64,000 nt of DNA, taken from NCBI GenBank assembly GCA_023014365.1, contig JAEBUN010000039.1, forward strand, positions 1 to 64,000, in the 5' to 3' direction. Positions within the stretch are counted from its first letter, which is position 1; the number at the start of each line of letters is the position of its first letter. This document shows positions 1 to 57,865 of this stretch, piece by piece. The position numbers and the translations under genes were made by a program. The notes beneath the pieces were generated by a model. It had not been told where the DNA came from. It saw only the letters and a program-made list of their open reading frames with translations, and made no database searches. This stretch comes from Lepiota brunneoincarnata. Taxonomy: Eukaryota; Basidiomycota; Agaricomycetes; Agaricales; Agaricaceae.

Positions 1-116
1 CAAAATATCTATGAGCTGGAGGCTCCAAAATGAGGGTTCTAAAAGGTTGAATATGTGAAAGTCCTAGCCTGAGGGAGGGTCTAATTCCTACCTGTTCAAT
101 GAAAAGTGTATATAAG
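1..116. repeat. Direct repeat copy A (partner at 460-576)
   Basis: This stretch reappears at 460-576 with scattered substitutions. Shared landmarks are 'gagctggaggct', 'cctagcctgagggagggtct' and 'gtatataa'. It probably extends beyond the left edge of the window. It is AT-rich and CpG-poor, unlike the element that follows. No coding potential is recognised. It may be the flank of a transposon or a subtelomeric repeat. Confidence 0.75.
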
Positions 117-244
117 TGTCCATGACTTCCTTTTATGGAAATTGTGGACCTTGGAGATTGGTCATGGAGGGGTAGTTGGTTTGGCTACATAGGCAACCAG
201 GTAGCCATGCCTATTGAGTACAAGAATATATATATGAGGAGTAG

Positions 245-382
245 AATTGATGTTCCAAAAGTGCAGGATGCATGTCAATAATGGCCGCGGAATTGACATT
301 CCAAAAGTGCGGCATGTGTAAAGGGGCAGGAGGGGTGTAAATTATAATGGCCGCGGAGTTGGATTTCCAAGAGTGCGGCAAT
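245..382. repeat. Three-copy degenerate repeat with GGCCGCGG spacer
   Basis: Three imperfect copies of 'aattgatgttccaaaagtgc' begin at about 245, 291 and 357. The first two are each followed by 'aatggccgcgg'. The GC-rich octamer stands out in an otherwise AT-rich, CpG-poor stretch. It lies between the two long direct repeats. The function is unknown. Confidence 0.6.
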
Positions 383-459
383 ATATGGGAATATATTGTG
401 CTGAGGGATGGAATATAGGCCACAGACTAGAAAATGCTAGTGTGCAGTATATAATTTCA

Positions 460-576
460 AGCAATATCTACAAGCTGGAGGCTCTAAAATGAAGGTTCTA
501 AACACTTGAAATTTGGAAAATCCTAGCCTGAGGGAGGGTCTAACCTGTACCTCTTCAACAAAAAGGGTATATAATT
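460..576. repeat. Direct repeat copy B, joined to the Penelope-like ORF
   Basis: Second copy of the repeat seen at 1-116. Similarity stops at about 576 ('gtatataa'). After that the sequence becomes the GC-richer, CpG-rich reverse transcriptase element. The open reading frame of the element runs backwards into this repeat, so its first roughly 20 codons (513-576) come from repeat sequence. Confidence 0.7.
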
Positions 577-2978
577 CTTTTTACGAGGGGGAAAGGGAGG
601 ACGAGGTGCTAGCGGCCCTCGTTCCACAGGTAAGCCTGAAACCTTTCGCTTGGGACCGCCCAAGTACGTATCCCGATTGGCTACTGACGGTACCTCCTCA
701 ACACGCGTACAGATTTATTGTACTACGGACTCCTATTGTAGTTTTAGAGTCCATGCGCTACCGTAGTACAATACATATGATAAACTGTGATATACCGCGT
801 GAATTAAGCATGCATCTGAGTGCGGGAATGAAGTATATGCTCCCGACTGCGCAGAAGAACGAACTGATCACTTCTGCGTGGGACGATTTCGTCGATCGTC
901 TCCGTTGGTCGATGTGGTTCCGTGCCACAGAAGCCGAAGATGCTAAGGACGACTTCGATCCAGACTACTGGTGCCCGAAGCCTAACCGGGCCGAGATGCA
1001 CCAGCTAGATCGGGTATTCGAGTACGGCGTCTGGTGCGGTCGTAGGGTCATCGATAAGATGATTTCTGATATGCCGACAGACAAACACGAAGGGGACCGT
1101 TACAAGCACGCGCTTGCTCCCCCTGTGGCCAAACTCCGCGACTTCCTGACGTCCCACGAGCTCGTCGTCGTTGCCACCGATAAGAACCTTGGTTGTGCGG
1201 TTGCCCCGCGTGCCTGGATCGTTGAGAAATCACTCTCGTTATTGTCTAACCATACCGACTATGTATTAGTTAGCGCGCAGTCCGCGTATAATATACTTTA
1301 TAACAAAAACGAACATATTAAGAGAATCGCGAGGATCGCCGAAGACTACGGCATCCAATCGCAGCTTCCCCGCTTTCTGCGGAGTCAGCTATCGGTCGAG
1401 CCTTCGGCCATCCCCACGTTTTATGTCATTCCAAAAATACATAAGACACCGGTAGCTGCGCGCCCGATTTTACCGTGCCACTCCGTACCGCAAGGGCCTG
1501 CAGGGAAGTATGTCTCGAAAAGTCTTAAACCGATCGTTAGATCGGCGCCTTACGTTATACACGGATCGAAAGATCTGGCGTTAAAATTAAGCAAGTTGTC
1601 GCTTCCGCAGTTCCGGTTTGAGAACGGTATGCTTAAGCGTCTTTTCCTCGTTTCGGGTGACGTTGTCGCCTTCTATCCCCACGTGGACGTCCAAAAAGCA
1701 CACTCCTACGCTGAGGACTTTTACACGCGGTGGTTAGCGGAACAGGAACTCGAAGTCGCAGACACTGACTTCGACGCCGAGCATGCAGCAGCGAAAGTGC
1801 AGCTGTTTAGGGAATGCATGCGAGCAGCGGACGACAACTTACTGGTACAATTCCAGGGCAAATACTACCGTCAGGCTAGGGGTCTGGCAATGGGGGTCGC
1901 TTCAAGCCCCGATCTCGCCAACCTCTACGGTCTTCACTTCGAACTGGAGTGTGAGGCGTTGCGGTCGCCCGACGTGGCGTTCTATGGACGCTACATCGAC
2001 GATTGTTTGGCACTCGTATACGCGTATCACGAGGAGGATGCTTTACGGCTCCTCGCCGACAATCTTAAGTACGATAATTGTACCATTACGTGGTCATCAT
2101 CAAACCAATATATGGTTTTCTTAGACATGATGCTGTTTACGGCAAACGGTCGCCTCCATCATAAGGCGTACAGAAAACCGATGAACCACTTTGAGCGTAT
2201 ACCCTGGATCAGCTTTCACCCGCTTTACGTCAAGAAAGGGACGTTTTGCAGTGAGCTGTCGAGACTCGCCACGCTTTCTTCACGTTTTGACGATTACGTG
2301 ATGGCTTGTAGAGAAGCTTCGGATATCTACATAGCGCGTGGCTATCCTCCGATGTTAATAGCTGCATGGTTAAGAGATAACTACCGTGCGCGGTGGGATG
2401 CGAGGCTTAGGGAGTCTTCGCCGCCGGCGGCTGACGTGCTCGTCTTAAAGAGCGAATTTAACATCTCCTGGGACTTATTCAACGCTCACAAACTTGAGGA
2501 CAGTATAAAGACTGGCTGGGCGCAGGCTATGAACGTCTTCGCCCGTCTGGATGTCAGGGGCCGGAATAACGTGCCGTTACCCCTGGATCTGGTGAAACTA
2601 GGTATCCCGAAGTTAGCGTCTGAGCTGACTAAGGTCTTCACTAAGATCGATCGCGCCGAGGATGAGCCCGACTTGTCCGAGGTTGCGAAAGATTGGTGTG
2701 TCGACTCTGGTTGGCAAGGACCCTTCCTTCGCCTAGATAAGCTCGGTCTTTTTGGTCGCCGTTTGCTGGTTTCGAAGAAAAGAACCCGGCAAATAATGGA
2801 CCTCACGTCAATTTGGCGTGCTTCTGTCCTCGCGCGGCGCGACCGCCAGGCGTTAATTACCGACTTCTTTCGCGAAGAAGCTCGAGCTCCCGTGGCCTCT
2901 TCTTCCGCTCCGGCGGTAGAACACCATCGTGAGAAGACGCCTGATCCGTGGCTCGCGATCATAAACGTTGATAGATAA
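513..2978 (+). CDS. Penelope-like reverse transcriptase (Coprina/Athena type, no endonuclease), 5' end probably truncated
   Basis: The open frame of 821 codons begins at a TTG in the upstream repeat, so the true N-terminus is missing or uncertain. Seen in order: TDKNLG (about residue 228), VIPKIHKTP...ARPIL, the RT palm GDVVAFYPHV (about 382), RGLAMGVASSPDLANLYG, the active site YIDD (codons 1992-2003), FLDMMLF, and HKAYRKPMNHF with WISFHP. The DKNLG block and KxHK..RPI block are hallmarks of Penelope-like elements rather than LINE or LTR enzymes. No GIY-YIG endonuclease follows. The C-terminal 200 residues have no recognised domain. In this family the enzyme extends chromosome ends by priming on the telomeric 3' overhang. 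The frame is unbroken, so the catalytic core could be active. CpG content and codon use differ sharply from the flanking repeat. Confidence 0.88.
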   Translation: MENPSLREGLTCTSSTKRVYNSFYEGEREDEVLAALVPQVSLKPFAWDRPSTYPDWLLTVPPQHAYRFIVLRTPIVVLESMRYRSTIHMINCDIPRELSMHLSAGMKYMLPTAQKNELITSAWDDFVDRLRWSMWFRATEAEDAKDDFDPDYWCPKPNRAEMHQLDRVFEYGVWCGRRVIDKMISDMPTDKHEGDRYKHALAPPVAKLRDFLTSHELVVVATDKNLGCAVAPRAWIVEKSLSLLSNHTDYVLVSAQSAYNILYNKNEHIKRIARIAEDYGIQSQLPRFLRSQLSVEPSAIPTFYVIPKIHKTPVAARPILPCHSVPQGPAGKYVSKSLKPIVRSAPYVIHGSKDLALKLSKLSLPQFRFENGMLKRLFLVSGDVVAFYPHVDVQKAHSYAEDFYTRWLAEQELEVADTDFDAEHAAAKVQLFRECMRAADDNLLVQFQGKYYRQARGLAMGVASSPDLANLYGLHFELECEALRSPDVAFYGRYIDDCLALVYAYHEEDALRLLADNLKYDNCTITWSSSNQYMVFLDMMLFTANGRLHHKAYRKPMNHFERIPWISFHPLYVKKGTFCSELSRLATLSSRFDDYVMACREASDIYIARGYPPMLIAAWLRDNYRARWDARLRESSPPAADVLVLKSEFNISWDLFNAHKLEDSIKTGWAQAMNVFARLDVRGRNNVPLPLDLVKLGIPKLASELTKVFTKIDRAEDEPDLSEVAKDWCVDSGWQGPFLRLDKLGLFGRRLLVSKKRTRQIMDLTSIWRASVLARRDRQALITDFFREEARAPVASSSAPAVEHHREKTPDPWLAIINVDR

Positions 2979-3550
2979 GGCTTACGTGGTATACCATGCC
3001 AGCCGTAGTTGTCCGCACAACCTAGCTGCGGCGACTGGTACCAAGTCGGCGCCCAAAGGGGAAATCCCAGGGCGTTCGGGTACCGACCTCTGCGGGGTGA
3101 TTCCCGTATGTCGGCCGGCCCATATTTGCTGATCTTGTGTAACCTTCCTGGGACGCCGTCGTTAGAAGACTTCGGTGTTGCACGACCTGCGCTTCGATCG
3201 CAGCACGCGAAAACAGGTTTTTAAATAGGTGGCCTTTTATCGGTTTGGGTGAGATGGTGCGGCGTAACCCGGAACCATGTCTGGGGGGGCGGTTATGCCC
3301 CCTTCCTAAGTCTATTAACTAGTAGTGGTCGCGTATACGGATAACAACGTAAGTTCGATCCCTGGTGGCGGTTAACTCGCTATTCTGCCGGTTATATGCC
3401 GTGCGGATCGCTTTTGCGGTAAGTACTACCTTACCTTCCCGACAAGGACAGCATACTAATACCATGCGTCCCCCTAACCCGAACCTAACCGGACCTAACC
3501 GGCGGTTTCGGGCGGGGTGTCCTTTAGCAGCCCCGTGGGAAGGATAGCCA
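2979..3550 (+). other. 3' non-coding part of the Penelope-like element
   Basis: This stretch separates the RT stop codon from the first terminal repeat unit. It is GC-rich with no convincing ORF. At 3470-3505 it carries a run of degenerate telomere-like blocks (cctaaccc, acctaacc, acctaacc). A B-box-like string (aagttcgatccc) near 3350 does not fold into a tRNA. Confidence 0.5.
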
Positions 3551-3938
3551 CCTAAGGTAAGTACCCCGCCACCGGTTATTCATGTCGCCGGTGCCGGCTT
3601 TCACAAGCTTCCCACGCTTGGACCCCGTGCGAAAGTGCACCTTGCCACGTTGTCACGTGACGGCCCTACCCCGGCCCGGATTGTTCCGTCGTCGGGTAAC
3701 ATAGCCCGATGGCACGTGACCGGTCGCACGATCACGTGACTTTTCTCAGCGCCAATCTGCGCGCTAAGGTCAGTACGGTAGGTTTACGTAAGCCGATAGT
3801 AAGTTATATCTCTAAGTTTCACCGATTATTCGGGGGATTATATAACGCGATCCGCGGAACGTTATCGATCGATTACGTTCGCAATCGATGCCGCTATCGC
3901 GGCCATCGATTGGACGGCAGGTGTCTGACGGACATTGT

Positions 3939-4004
3939 GCGCCTGATGAGTCTTTTATAAGACGAAACGGGTGGGTAGTTGGAAACCCCAACGACCCGTT
4001 GCGC
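3939..4004 (+). ncRNA. Type I hammerhead ribozyme, copy 1
   Basis: Read directly: stem I GCGC (3939-3942) pairs with GCGC (4001-4004). The core CTGATGA is at 3943-3949. Stem II is GTCTT/AAGAC closed by TTAT (3950-3963), then GAAA (3964-3967). Stem III is CGGGT/ACCCG (3968-3972 with 3994-3998) with an inner GTTGG/CCAAC hairpin. Cleavage is expected after the U at 4000 (sequence GUU). Stems II and III are closed and stem I is open, so it is type I, the class known from Penelope-like elements. A small TGTC...GACA hairpin precedes stem I. Confidence 0.88.
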
Positions 4005-4039
4005 CCTCCGTCGCGACTCGTGTGTTATACGCCCCCTTT

Positions 4040-4057
4040 CCTAACCCCCTAAACCCC
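4040..4057 (+). repeat. Telomere-like CCCTAA junction between units 1 and 2
   Basis: The string CCTAACCCCCTAAACCCC separates two element units. Reverse-complement telomeric repeats at the 3' side of the sense strand are what telomere-primed reverse transcription would leave. Confidence 0.7.
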
Positions 4058-4556
4058 ATCTAAGGTATGTACACCGCCACCGGTAAATCATGTCACCGGT
4101 GCCGGGTTTCACAAGTTCTCACGCTTGGACCCCGTGCGAAAGTGCACCTTGTTACGTTGTCACGTGACGGCCCTACCCCGGCCCGGATTGTTCCGTCGTC
4201 GGGTAACATAGCCCGATGGCACGTGACCGGTCGCACGATCACGTGACTTTTCCCAGACGCAAGCGCGCGTCTAAGTCAGCGCGGTAAGTTTTGAAACTCG
4301 AAGTTAAGTTTTTAATCCTATTTTCACCTGTTATTAACGGGGGGATTATAAATACGTTCCGCGGATTTTGATCTATCGATCAAAATCGCAATCGATCGCT
4401 ATCGGCGACAATCGATTGGACGGCAGGTATCTGACGGATATCGTGCGCCTGATGAGTCTTTATAAGACGAAACGGGTGGGTAGTTGGAAACCCCAACAAC
4501 CCGTTGCGCCCCTCCGTCGCGACTCGTGTTTATACGCCCCCTTTCCTAACCCCTAA
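4058..4556 (+). repeat. Terminal unit 2 (variant B, full length)
   Basis: About 85-90% like unit 1 by eye over its first 200 bp, then more diverged. It keeps three CACGTG palindromes (4161, 4220, 4240), the ATCGAT-rich stretch, a hammerhead motif and a terminal CCTAACCCCTAA (4545-4556). Variant-specific differences from unit 1 include the shorter stem II loop and 'ggtatctgacggatatcg' ahead of the ribozyme. Confidence 0.8.
4445..4509 (+). ncRNA. Type I hammerhead ribozyme, copy 2
   Basis: Stem I GCGC 4445-4448 with 4506-4509; CTGATGA 4449-4455; stem II GTCTT/AAGAC with a three-base TAT loop; GAAA 4469-4472; stem III CGGGT/ACCCG. The predicted cleavage site follows UU at 4504-4505. All conserved core bases are present. 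Confidence 0.88.
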
Positions 4557-4808
4557 GTTATATTTCTAAGTTTCACCGATTATTTGGGGGATTATATAAC
4601 GCGATCCGCGGAACGTTATCGATGGATTACGTTCGCAATCGATGCCGCTATCGCGGCCATCGATTGGACGGCAGGTGTCTGACAGACATCGTGCGCCTGA
4701 TGAGTCTTTTATAAGACGAAACGGGTGGGTAGTTGGAAACCCCAATGACCCGTTGCGCCCTCCGTCGCGACTCGTGTGTTATACGCCCCCTTTCCTAACC
4801 CTAACCCT
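4555..4808 (+). repeat. Terminal unit 3 (variant A', 5'-truncated)
   Basis: Starts abruptly at a sequence matching position 3801 of unit 1 (offset 754) and runs colinearly through the ribozyme to a CCTAACCCTAACCCT tip (4794-4808). It lacks the CACGTG-containing 5' half. The substitutions it shares with unit 1 rather than unit 2 mark it as variant A. The 5' truncation is the usual signature of incomplete reverse transcription. Confidence 0.8.
4693..4758 (+). ncRNA. Type I hammerhead ribozyme, copy 3
   Basis: Stem I GCGC 4693-4696 with 4755-4758; CTGATGA 4697-4703; stem II GTCTTTTATAAGAC; GAAA; stem III closed by ACCCG; cleavage expected after U4754. It is intact in every core position and in all pairings. 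Confidence 0.86.
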
Positions 4809-4950
4809 CGGTGACAATCGATTGGACGGCAGGTATCTGACGGATATCGTGCGCCTGATGAGTCTTTATAAGACGAAACGGGTGGGTAGTTGGAAACCCC
4901 AACAACCCGTTGCACCCCACTGTTGCGACTTGTGTTATTACTCCCCTTCC
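4809..4950 (+). repeat. Terminal unit 4 (variant B', strongly 5'-truncated)
   Basis: Begins at a point matching about 4403 of unit 2 (offset 406) and covers only the ribozyme and tail, about 140 bp. Its end has decayed to ccccaacccaag instead of clean CCCTAA. By the insertion model it is the oldest and most chromosome-internal of the four units. Confidence 0.7.
4851..4915 (+). ncRNA. Type I hammerhead ribozyme, copy 4 (stem I damaged)
   Basis: The core CTGATGA, stem II, GAAA and stem III are all present. The 3' strand of stem I reads GCAC (4912-4915) against GCGC (4851-4854), which breaks the perfect four-base pairing. Activity is probably reduced or lost, in line with this being the oldest fragment. 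Confidence 0.75.
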
Positions 4951-5464
4951 CCAACCCAAGACCCTCCCTCCACATCCTTCTCTCCACACCCTGCAACCCA
5001 AGACCCTGGACTATGAACCTGAATCCAACCCTTGAGTCCCCCTGATAACCCTAGCATGGCCTTTTCTCTTGGTCTTTTCTTCCATTTCATGCTTGGTACA
5101 TATGAAAATCTTCATTCTCCTTCTCCTGTTCCATGCGCTCAGCTCTTAGATTAACTTATTTTCACTTTTCTTGTATCTTCTCCTTTTCTGCTGTTGTTTG
5201 TATATCAAGTACAACATGTGAGGGGACTCATTCTCCAGTAGTAAATATATGACCTTTCCTCTCGGCCTCTCTCTCTCTCTCACTCTCTCCCTCGCATCTC
5301 TCTCTCTCTTGTGCTACAGCCTGCAGCTGAGGTCCCGAAACAACTTGGGATGGGAACCCCCAACTGGTGGCTACCAACTCATCCCCAAGGTATGGGTTAT
5401 TTCAGAGTTGACTGTATATGATAGCATTGTGGAATCAGTGGCTGAGTAAACAAAAAGGCTGTCC
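4951..5464. other. Intergenic spacer with CT-rich microsatellite
   Basis: Spacer between the retroelement block and the BRCT gene stop codon. A pyrimidine-rich (CT)n stretch lies at about 5258-5310. Near 5345 there is a short inverted repeat around 'acccccaactggtggctac'. No gene is recognised. Confidence 0.5.
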
Positions 5465-55280: not shown

Positions 55281-57865
55281 CCCTGCATCATATTTTCATT
55301 TAGGTATTTAAGTAGCACATTTGTACTTAGATACACTTGAGACCTATGGGAATGCAAGAGGCCTGCACAGGGTGCCATAAATATCCCCATTTATTCAAAA
55401 TACACTGACGGATGGATGGGCCTCATGTGTTCAGTCACTTATACAACAAACAACAATAAATTTATTGTGTCTGTTTAGATATTTTGCAGAGTCTATATCT
55501 ACATGGCACATTATTTTAGACTATCTTAATTGTCTCTGTGGGCACCATTTATCTGCTCACTGAAATAGAAAATATAATTAAATAATTAGTATATGTATAT
55601 AGATCCATTTAGTTTAACAAAAGTGCCCAAACATATGGTGCCAGAAATGGACAATCAGCATGTCTTCCACAGTTGGCATGCATGATCCCCATGCATTCAG
55701 TCCAAGTAATTGAATTTGTGGGGGAATGTGTGGGAGCTATGCAGTGCTTTGTATTTTCAGAAGATATGAGACCCTTTTCTTGAGTGGCCCACAAGTGGGC
55801 ATGGGAGCGGGCCACTGGGATATATCCTTTTTGCAGTATTGCACACTGCTGAGAGAGAACCATGTTGACATACTCCCTGGTAGATGAAGTGACCCTCTGA
55901 TTTTGGTGACTATTTCCAAGAGGCTATCTGGCAACTGATGCAACAGGGCAGTTTGCTGGTTGAAGAAAATATCTGGTGGGTATGTCTTGGTAGATACACT
56001 AATCCTGATGGGCTGGAATAAGGTCTCACTTTCTAGCACTTAGGATGCCCAGGGTTATTAGAGGCTACTAGGGTCAGACTAGGGTTGAGAGCCCAACTAT
56101 GGCAGGGTTGGTGGGGTTGGTGGCAGAGTGTACTGGCACACCTCTGGCTTGATGAGGATGGGCCACATCAAGACAAGTGCATGAAGACTTGTCTTATCTC
56201 TCATAGCTTGAGTACTTGTATTAGCAGGCTTGTGTTAGGGGAATAAGGGGCCCAGAACCAAGTTGATAATCAAGTAAGGGGCTTCACTCCTCAACCTGTG
56301 CCTATATACTACAGACAGTGCTATAAATACTACAGAATGTCCTGGAACATCAGAGAACAACTATTTACAGCACAAGATCAAGTTCTGTCTAAGAATATCC
56401 ATCAGGCAACCTACATCAGAAGGGGAGTAAGAATAGATGAGTGGCAACCCATTACACCACTTAGATACACCAGGTGATCAGTATGCTAAGCCCACTAGGA
56501 TTGGGATCTGGCTACCCAGCTGTCCCCTTACAGCTTGGGTCATGGGTGTAAATTGATTTCATGGTAAATACATCATCTACAAATGTGATTACAAGATGGG
56601 TGAGACAAGTGACTGCTTGGTGAAGGTACTGGCAAATAAAATGCCAGAGTTGAGAGAATACATACAGTAGGCATCAAAACTCTTCCAATGTTTTTTTACT
56701 TTCAGTTATTCCTTGAATAGCTCTAGAGATACTAAAGCTAGGGACTTCATATTTCACAAATATATACTTCTATATCTTATCTACAGATTGGTATAGTTAT
56801 AATTACATAAAATTCCTTTTTGGGAATGTGGTGAATTAAATAATACTTTCAGTGCATTGGAAGGGTTTTGCAGCTCTCATCTATAATTACATGGTTTTAT
56901 TTAATGCAATCAAATAGATGCAAATAAAAATCACGTGACTATGTGGGATTATGTATATATACAGGTGCTTACTTCTCATGCCTAACTCAACTCCCCAACC
57001 TATCTTACCCTGCTGTTATAGTGATGCCAGTCTTTGTGCTTGAAAGCATGACTAGTGTTGAGTGTATCGTTCATTTCACCCAAGTCAACAATCACTCAAA
57101 GAGACTCTTTGCAAGCTCTCAAGGTATTCCTCACTAACTTAGAGATTAAGACTTATGAAAGAGGACAACTCAAGAGTGCAAGCAAGTAGGTAAATCTCCA
57201 CCGGATAACCAAGTAGAAACTTAAGAGTTTCTCTTGGTTGACTGGAGATCTTATATATTGTTCAGAGATACTATTAATACATGATCAAGGAAGTATGGGA
57301 GAAGTTCAAGAAGTGTGGAAGAAGTGTAAGAAGAGTGGGAGAAGTTAAGAAGCATGGAAGAAGTTAAAGAAGTTGGGATGAACTATGTTTAACTATTTTC
57401 AAGAATAAATATCTATACATAGTTATCTATTAATAGTTAAGAGTATGAGAAAAGACAATAAATTGAAAAAATATTATGTAATAGATCAAAGTGAAAATGG
57501 TTACATAATAAAGAAACAAAACAAAGTAGAAAAGAAAAAGATATTCATAATGCTTTAGTATATTACAACTAAAGACTTTTGGTGTAAGAAGTCCAAGGTA
57601 TAGGTCAAAGTAAGGATGTATCATAACATTATTCCCTTTGTACACTTGATGTCCTTATCAACTACTATCTGAACTATACCTCAAAATGTATTGTGAGGTT
57701 CTCCAATCATGTTGGATTTGGCATTGTCCCCAAAATTGATGTCAACAAATTCATGATCAAAATCCTTGTAGTCGCAGTCAAAATGCCTGTTCACTCTGAC
57801 TGACTGAGGGCTTGGCTCATAATTGGGAATGTGTCCTCAATAGTTACAATTGGCAGATGGACTAG
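55281..57865. other. AT-rich, CpG-poor non-coding block
   Basis: About 2.6 kb of low-CpG sequence with no frame longer than 100 codons of recognisable kind. It is probably old transposon sequence, by analogy with the decayed elements to its right. Confidence 0.45.
57290..57385. repeat. Degenerate purine-rich short tandem repeat
   Basis: Imperfect iterations of a 'gaagaagtgtgg'-like unit (agaagttcaagaagtgtgg, aagaagtgtaagaagagtgg, gagaagttaagaagcatgg, aagaagttaaagaagttggg). The period is about 18-21 bp. All-purine bias on the + strand. Confidence 0.6.

Follow-up and report, generated by a model that had tools for sequence, protein, structure and literature searches.

The window analysed here is a stretch of 64,000 bases, positions 1 to 64,000 of contig JAEBUN010000039.1 (C35; 382,363 bases) of Lepiota brunneoincarnata, and forms the left end of that contig in a genome of 55.6 Mb and 95 contigs. 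Close to its outer end lies a truncated copy of a Penelope-like retroelement (PLE), in which the open reading frame (ORF) for a reverse transcriptase (RT) is followed by a ladder of four terminal units derived from the pseudo long terminal repeat (pLTR) of the element. The element is very probably an endonuclease-deficient, telomere-attaching PLE of chromosome ends, and the telomere-type Penelope interpretation given to this DNA in a first-pass annotation is supported. The features of the locus, with the evidence for each in brackets, are:

1..573, + strand: repeat X, with the fixed 3' end GGGTATATAAT; adjoins the truncated RT copy, lies outside the Penelope element and is itself end-associated (same 3' end elsewhere)
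574..2978, + strand: 5'-truncated RT ORF, subfamily A1 (alignment to the unit; in-frame codons from 576)
2979..3470, + strand: 3' untranslated region (alignment to full units)
3446..3471, + strand: conserved hairpin, GGAC-GCAT / ATGC-GTCC, directly 5' of the pLTR (11 sequence types)
3470..3502, + strand: telomere-like "seed" tract at the pLTR start, CCCCCTAACCCGAACCTAACCGGACCTAACCGG (clustered 5' ends)
3471..4044, + strand: unit 1, the complete 3' pLTR of the RT-bearing copy, A1 (alignment)
3939..4004, + strand: unit 1 hammerhead motif, laid out as type I, with cleavage predicted after 4000 (motif, Rfam, pairing)
4040..4055, + strand: telomeric tip and junction of unit 1, CCTAACCCCCTAAACC (sequence)
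4056..4549, + strand: unit 2, the last 494 nucleotides (nt) of an A2 pLTR, hammerhead at 4445-4509 (100% to A2 reference 4235-4728)
4554..4798, + strand: unit 3, the last 245 nt of an A1 pLTR, hammerhead at 4693-4758 (98% to A1 reference)
4808..4957, + strand: unit 4, the last ~148 nt of an A5-like pLTR, hammerhead at 4851-4915 (95% to A5 reference)

A full copy of the element consists of a pLTR, a tip (CCTAACCCTA(A)), a leader, a single ORF of ~1,200 codons, a 3' untranslated region, a second pLTR and a final tip. The window copy begins at 574, equivalent to position 1253 of the 4,724-nt A1 unit, and runs to the unit end at 4044, so that it lacks ~400 codons at the N-terminus together with the 5' pLTR and keeps the C-terminal 800 codons, including the RT motifs SGDVVAFYP, RGLAMG, YIDD and TDKNLG. 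The RT had been annotated as intact: the ORF is indeed present (513-2978, 821 codons), but its 5' side is cut by repeat X and its first 21 codons are foreign. Because positions 1-573 belong to a different repeat with a recurring 3' end, the RT copy is not intact.

All four units carry the CTGATGA...GAAA motif of a hammerhead and a CCCTAA-like tip, as annotated, together with the direct-repeat families D1-D3, and short telomeric stretches separate them. Their lengths of 574, 494, 245 and ~148 nt make them full, slightly truncated, truncated and more truncated; unit 2, first taken to be full, is without ~81 nt. The subfamily changes along the ladder (A1, A2, A1, A5-like), so the units look like separate additions and not like one tandem duplication. 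Unit 4 is the most diverged (95%), with a decayed tip (CCCCAACCCAAGACCC) and, as read from its sequence, one mismatched pair in stem I of the hammerhead (GCGC/GCAC). The string CAACCCAAGACCCT occurs at this decayed tip and again ~45 nt deeper in host DNA (window 4951-5010), a possible trace of the oldest telomere junction.

The reverse transcriptase and the hammerhead motif

A Pfam scan of the 1,200-aa ORF returned a weak RVT_1 match and two sub-threshold matches, with no GIY-YIG domain up to E = 1, in keeping with the annotated absence of an endonuclease domain. Sequence-profile searches of the PDB gave chance-level matches only. The best structural match of the predicted RT structure is telomerase (TERT), over residues 67-617; an earlier model built from 7 sequences was too poor to be used (predicted local distance difference test score, pLDDT, of 36). 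An Rfam match to tpke11 within the RT ORF was at chance level and was disregarded. Between the window RT and the copy on C37 there are 27 synonymous and 3 non-synonymous changes; judged by its codons, the ORF is under purifying selection.

The copies fall into three groups, A (A1-A5), B and C; protein identity is 80-95% within A, 54-56% for B against A and about 41% for C. RT homologues gave 345 matches at E up to 0.001, and the best 120 listed include proteins of Agaricus, Leucoagaricus, Lentinula and Armillaria. In a tree of the homologues found here (from these four genera and unnamed sources), A and B form one clade (99/98) and C joins a protein of Agaricus bisporus (100/99). With A and B placed apart from C in this way, at least two element lineages seem, from the protein tree, to predate the split from Agaricus. 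The subfamily C locus (C83 about 30909-25939; L070 and L057) has a pLTR of its own, which carries a variant hammerhead and starts with a separate telomere-like tract. The host genome encodes a TERT RNA-binding domain elsewhere, and the fungus is, by its gene content, one that keeps its telomerase.

The hammerhead motif has the stems I GCGC/GCGC, II GUCUU..AAGAC and III ACGGG..CCCGU, with CUGA(U/C)GA and GAA between them; cleavage is predicted after the last U of CCCGUU, and the stems close as in type I hammerheads. The conserved core (CUGANGA, GAA, A15.1/U16.1, NUH) is present along with all three stems. Rfam recovers the hammerhead core in all four units at 23.5-25.3 bits, under the gathering score of 48.5 bits, with E values of 0.0085-0.027 when 1.1 kb is searched; across the whole window two of the four units appear at E up to 1 (0.49 each). 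A pattern search of the fetched array DNA found 114 motif copies in 13 variants, all on the sense strand, unit 4 of the window falling outside the pattern because of its stem I mismatch. So many copies elsewhere on the same strand exclude chance as the source of the motif. Among the 13 variants, 96.8% of pair cells are standard and 6 pairs are changed on both sides, a level of pairing that none of 500 shuffles reached.

The hammerhead probably trims the element RNA, to judge from its conservation. It might instead be a structural or protein-binding fold and no working ribozyme, which is the less likely reading, by a clear distance. According to RNAfold the hammerhead is less stable in silico than a competing fold, the difference being ~4-5 kcal/mol in A, 3 in B and in C, and 4-11 in context, and the motif lies under the Rfam threshold. 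The ribozyme of an Anolis Penelope element cleaves in the presence of protein only, and mutating it leaves insertion in vitro unaffected (PMC11167929). A non-catalytic role accords poorly with the retention of every catalytic core position in A, B and C, accompanied by compensatory changes in the stems.

Arrays at chromosome ends and how they may grow

The units recur at other chromosome ends. Genome searches scored the best candidates (55 of 160 for the RT, 40 of 198 for the pLTR and 40 of 134 in one further search), and the copy numbers are therefore lower bounds. The RT search gave at least 56 matches, lying in arrays. RT/pLTR arrays lie near 6 left ends (C14, C21, C35, C47, C68, C71), each time on the + strand, and near 10 right ends (C16, C20, C22, C37, C42, C45, C46, C53, C62, C79), each time on the - strand, so that the orientation is telomere to centromere at 16/16. 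This count covers contigs of known length; outside it are C73, C31, C82 and C92, the last three with matches near the contig start that are also on the + strand, and C83, where the array is not at a clear end and was parsed as a right end. Exact (CCCTAA)3 has 86 matches in the genome, overlaps included (10 forward, 76 reverse), mostly on the array contigs.

The array DNA, 236 kb merged from fetched loci into 32 segments, was aligned to natural reference copies, and among the 998 alignments none longer than 100 bp is on the opposite strand. Nearly every copy ends at the CCTAACCC tip: 111 of 118 block 3' ends lie exactly at the reference tip, 6 are within 3 nt of it, and unit 4 of the window stops 10 nt short. 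The 5' ends range from nearly full length down to copies of ~50 nt. At non-tract junctions (those away from the pLTR-start tract) the tip is separated from the older copy by at least 3 nt in 60 of 65 measured cases, typically by telomeric repeats of up to ~45 nt; exceptionally, two gaps of ~1.6 kb are filled by subfamily C sequence, and a pLTR fragment forms part of another, of 54 nt.

At 7 contig ends (C16, C20, C37, C45, C53, C62, C79) telomeric arrays are set directly on truncated copies, the caps at C16 and C62 sitting on the pLTR-start tract; the terminal-cap loci L074-L079 were judged by eye and lie outside the counts. Given these caps and the telomerase domain encoded in the genome, telomerase and the element appear to take turns at the ends.

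A scheme can be proposed in which the RNA tip (CCUAACCC) would anneal where an uncapped chromosome exposes its G-rich 3' end. This end would then be extended by the telomerase-like RT, with the element RNA as template and usually with an early stop, after which telomerase or another copy would cap the new end. Repeated rounds would build up a ladder whose units grow older towards the centromere. In the window, unit 4 would have been added first, then units 3 and 2 and finally the RT copy, whose 5' part would have been lost later, with repeat X in its place. The fixed tip, the orientation, the varied 5' ends and the telomeric repeats can be read in the DNA; the annealing and copying of the tip RNA are what we infer. 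The consulted part of one account has endonuclease-deficient Penelope elements priming from exposed chromosome termini, with telomeric repeats subsequently found on the truncated 5' end (PMC3846280), and the excerpts available of another place the hammerhead next to the telomeric tip (PMC6431247).

The reading of the element as an endonuclease-deficient PLE of chromosome ends is favoured by the compensatory hammerhead changes, the purifying selection, the TERT-like fold, the one-way orientation and the fixed 3' ends. Several observations, in addition to the competing RNA fold, weigh against it. Five of the 65 non-tract junctions have gaps under 3 nt without telomeric repeats, so the primer is not always a telomere. 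C46 and C53 have four identical junctions in common, C20 contains an internal 6.76-kb repeat and C71 a repeated unit pair, and some array structure must accordingly come from recombination and not from addition. The series of identical junctions lies at 252-244 kb in C46 and 210-202 kb in C53 (L054, L067, L052, L053, L065), and the two are either allelic ends of a dikaryon or the result of recent exchange between chromosome ends. In C20 an A1-to-B junction occurs twice, at 780 kb and 787 kb (L049, L050), 6.76 kb apart, with differing A1 5' ends.

Subtelomeric recombination, by unequal exchange or break-induced copying via CCTAACC, could on this evidence have built the ladders from a few ancestral junctions in place of the RT, aided by the short homologies that the CCTAACC stretches offer. 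Such an origin is nonetheless highly improbable: after removal of duplicates there are 85 distinct 5' ends joined to a constant 3' end, a combination that recombination alone does not produce, and neighbouring units often come from different subfamilies.

If the RT does copy element RNA onto chromosome ends, its template may be a circle cut by the hammerhead, which is a weak hypothesis. In 16 full copies the 5' pLTR was compared with the 3' pLTR of the same copy: the own pair was closest in 6, tied in 6, and another copy was closer in 4. The six are A3 twice (1 vs 4), A4 twice (0 and 3 vs 6 and 5), and A1 and B (0), the last two being the sole members of their subfamilies in the compared set. 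The four contrary copies are C22 705320 and C46 (each by 1), C47 (3 vs 1) and C20 766239 (8 vs 1). One copy, at C46 251781 and repeated at C53, extends 428 nt past the pLTR start. This mixed result and the overshoot keep the circle template at its weak standing.

The telomere-like tract and repeat X

The 5' ends cluster at the start of the pLTR. Short patches of subfamily C with <90% identity and ends within 3 nt of a segment edge were excluded before counting, and removal of 7 hand-picked duplicate junctions and 2 repeat X junctions reduced 94 ends to 85 distinct ones. Of these, 18 fall inside the ~40-nt CCTAACC tract against 0.72 expected (binomial P about 4e-20), one of the 18, the C16 cap, having a position uncertain by about 15 nt. 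The excess persists when only ends within the pLTR are considered (18/43 vs 3.0 expected; P about 2e-10) and when ends of the same family and position are collapsed (14/80; P about 9e-15). Outside the tract, any 40-nt window holds at most 5 ends. Few ends lie near the predicted hammerhead cleavage site, and an origin of the 5' ends at that site is not supported. A similar tract recurs in subfamilies with only ~41% protein identity.

Directly before the tract, the hairpin has 82 of 99 standard pair cells over 11 types aligned by hand, which none of 2000 shuffles reached; its double-sided pair changes were matched by 3.75% of shuffles. Pairing of the outer stem is lost in B, as is that of one inner pair in C. 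Since the 11 rows are related, the alignment provides moderate evidence that the hairpin is conserved across types.

It is conceivable, at rather less than an even chance, that the element carries its own telomere seed: the RT would halt at the hairpin, or erosion at the tract, leaving a TTAGGG-like 3' end that telomerase caps or on which the next copy primes. Alternatively, the tract may be the 5' end of the RNA, as a start or processing site, with 5' ends clustering by run-off and no landing pad involved. The tract is the starting point of 9 of 13 full-length copies and of several solo units, and 10 of the 18 tract ends lie at its outer edge, as run-off would predict. The remaining 8 occupy motifs deeper inside the tract, by up to ~30 nt, and in 6 cases the end is fused to the next tip via the CCTAA of that tip with no extra repeats; this, together with a TATA-like motif ~370 nt downstream of the tract, makes the run-off explanation somewhat doubtful and less probable than the seed. 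No description of the pLTR-start tract turned up in the literature searched, which consisted of partial texts and lay outside the defining PLE papers, and no claim is made that it is unpublished; a built-in telomere seed receiving the next copy is possibly new.

Repeat X, which borders the window copy, has the same 3' end (GGGTATATAAT) at all 12 inspected places (the window, C42 and ten others), 6 of them in Penelope DNA and 6 in other DNA. Genome-wide, 17 such ends occur with up to 2 mismatches, 13 of them exact, compared with 0 for a reversed control pattern. Every inspected copy lies within ~74 kb of a contig end and points from telomere to centromere (8 left, +; 4 right, -). As for the other five ends, C32 3911 and C71 32626 agree, C83 1555 is oriented like the Penelope array of C83, C79 1103643 (2 mismatches) lies ~530 kb from the contig end, and the fifth is on C63, which is outside the contigs of known length. 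Six of the 12 copies adjoin truncated Penelope copies at an AT. The repeat is without a telomeric tip and has inner repeats ~460 nt apart, and a 2-kb flank of it in C42 contains no long ORF besides an RT fragment. With all 12 copies near an end and in one orientation, X is not dismissed as an ordinary insertion; it may be a second, tip-less end-added repeat or a subtelomeric repeat spread by recombination. Far from these features, at 57285-57373, the window also contains a short tandem array with periods of 20 and 39 nt.

Comparison with known systems

Coprina and other fungal endonuclease-deficient PLEs are said to have been described by Gladyshev and Arkhipova in 2007, the hammerhead in Penelope elements reportedly by Cervera and de la Pena in 2014, and Terminons, again reportedly, by Arkhipova in 2017. 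The present element has an RT related to telomerase, no GIY-YIG domain, a location at chromosome ends, 5' truncation and telomeric repeats at its junctions, and is a further member of an already known type of PLE. Compared by description only, and from partial texts, Coprina is alike in its RT without endonuclease, telomere location, 5' truncation, telomeric junction stretches and fungal host. The tract and hairpin at the start of the pLTR, and the use of the tract as a junction site, were not met in the portions available of texts on Coprina-type elements. In a source seen in part, PLEs are placed at two Agaricus bisporus chromosome ends without telomere repeats (PMC7473861).

The Terminons and Athena elements of bdelloid rotifers, as far as the accessible parts of their descriptions go, resemble the Lepiota element in having a reverse-complement telomeric stretch right after the 3' hammerhead and in forming head-to-tail, 5'-truncated arrays at telomeres (PMC6431247, PMC5537684). 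A Terminon is a giant unit with accessory ORFs beside the RT, whereas the units here measure 4.6-4.8 kb and hold one ORF of ~1,200 codons, with no accessory ORFs. The Anolis Penelope/Poseidon element PAc has the same pLTR-ORF-pLTR layout, with a hammerhead beside the pLTR-ORF junction, and its reverse transcription starts internally near that junction, approximately at the site of the CCCTAA tip here; in contrast, a GIY-YIG endonuclease is present in PAc, whose insertion sites are internal and AT-rich (PMC11167929).

How one copy follows another at a chromosome end is an unsettled question on which these arrays bear, this telomerase-bearing fungus having numerous recent copies, several of identical sequence, whose junctions can be read. 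Through the junction statistics the mechanism becomes testable: the tip is fixed, the 5' stops are scattered and a single telomere-like stop is preferred. The junctions suggest how each copy may prepare the landing site for the next. TERT itself is the best structural match of the RT model and likewise extends chromosome 3' ends, although its template is short and sits in a separate RNA, whereas the Lepiota RT appears to copy the RNA of the element itself. Among living systems, telomere-attaching Penelope elements offer a close comparison for the possible origin or replacement of telomerase.

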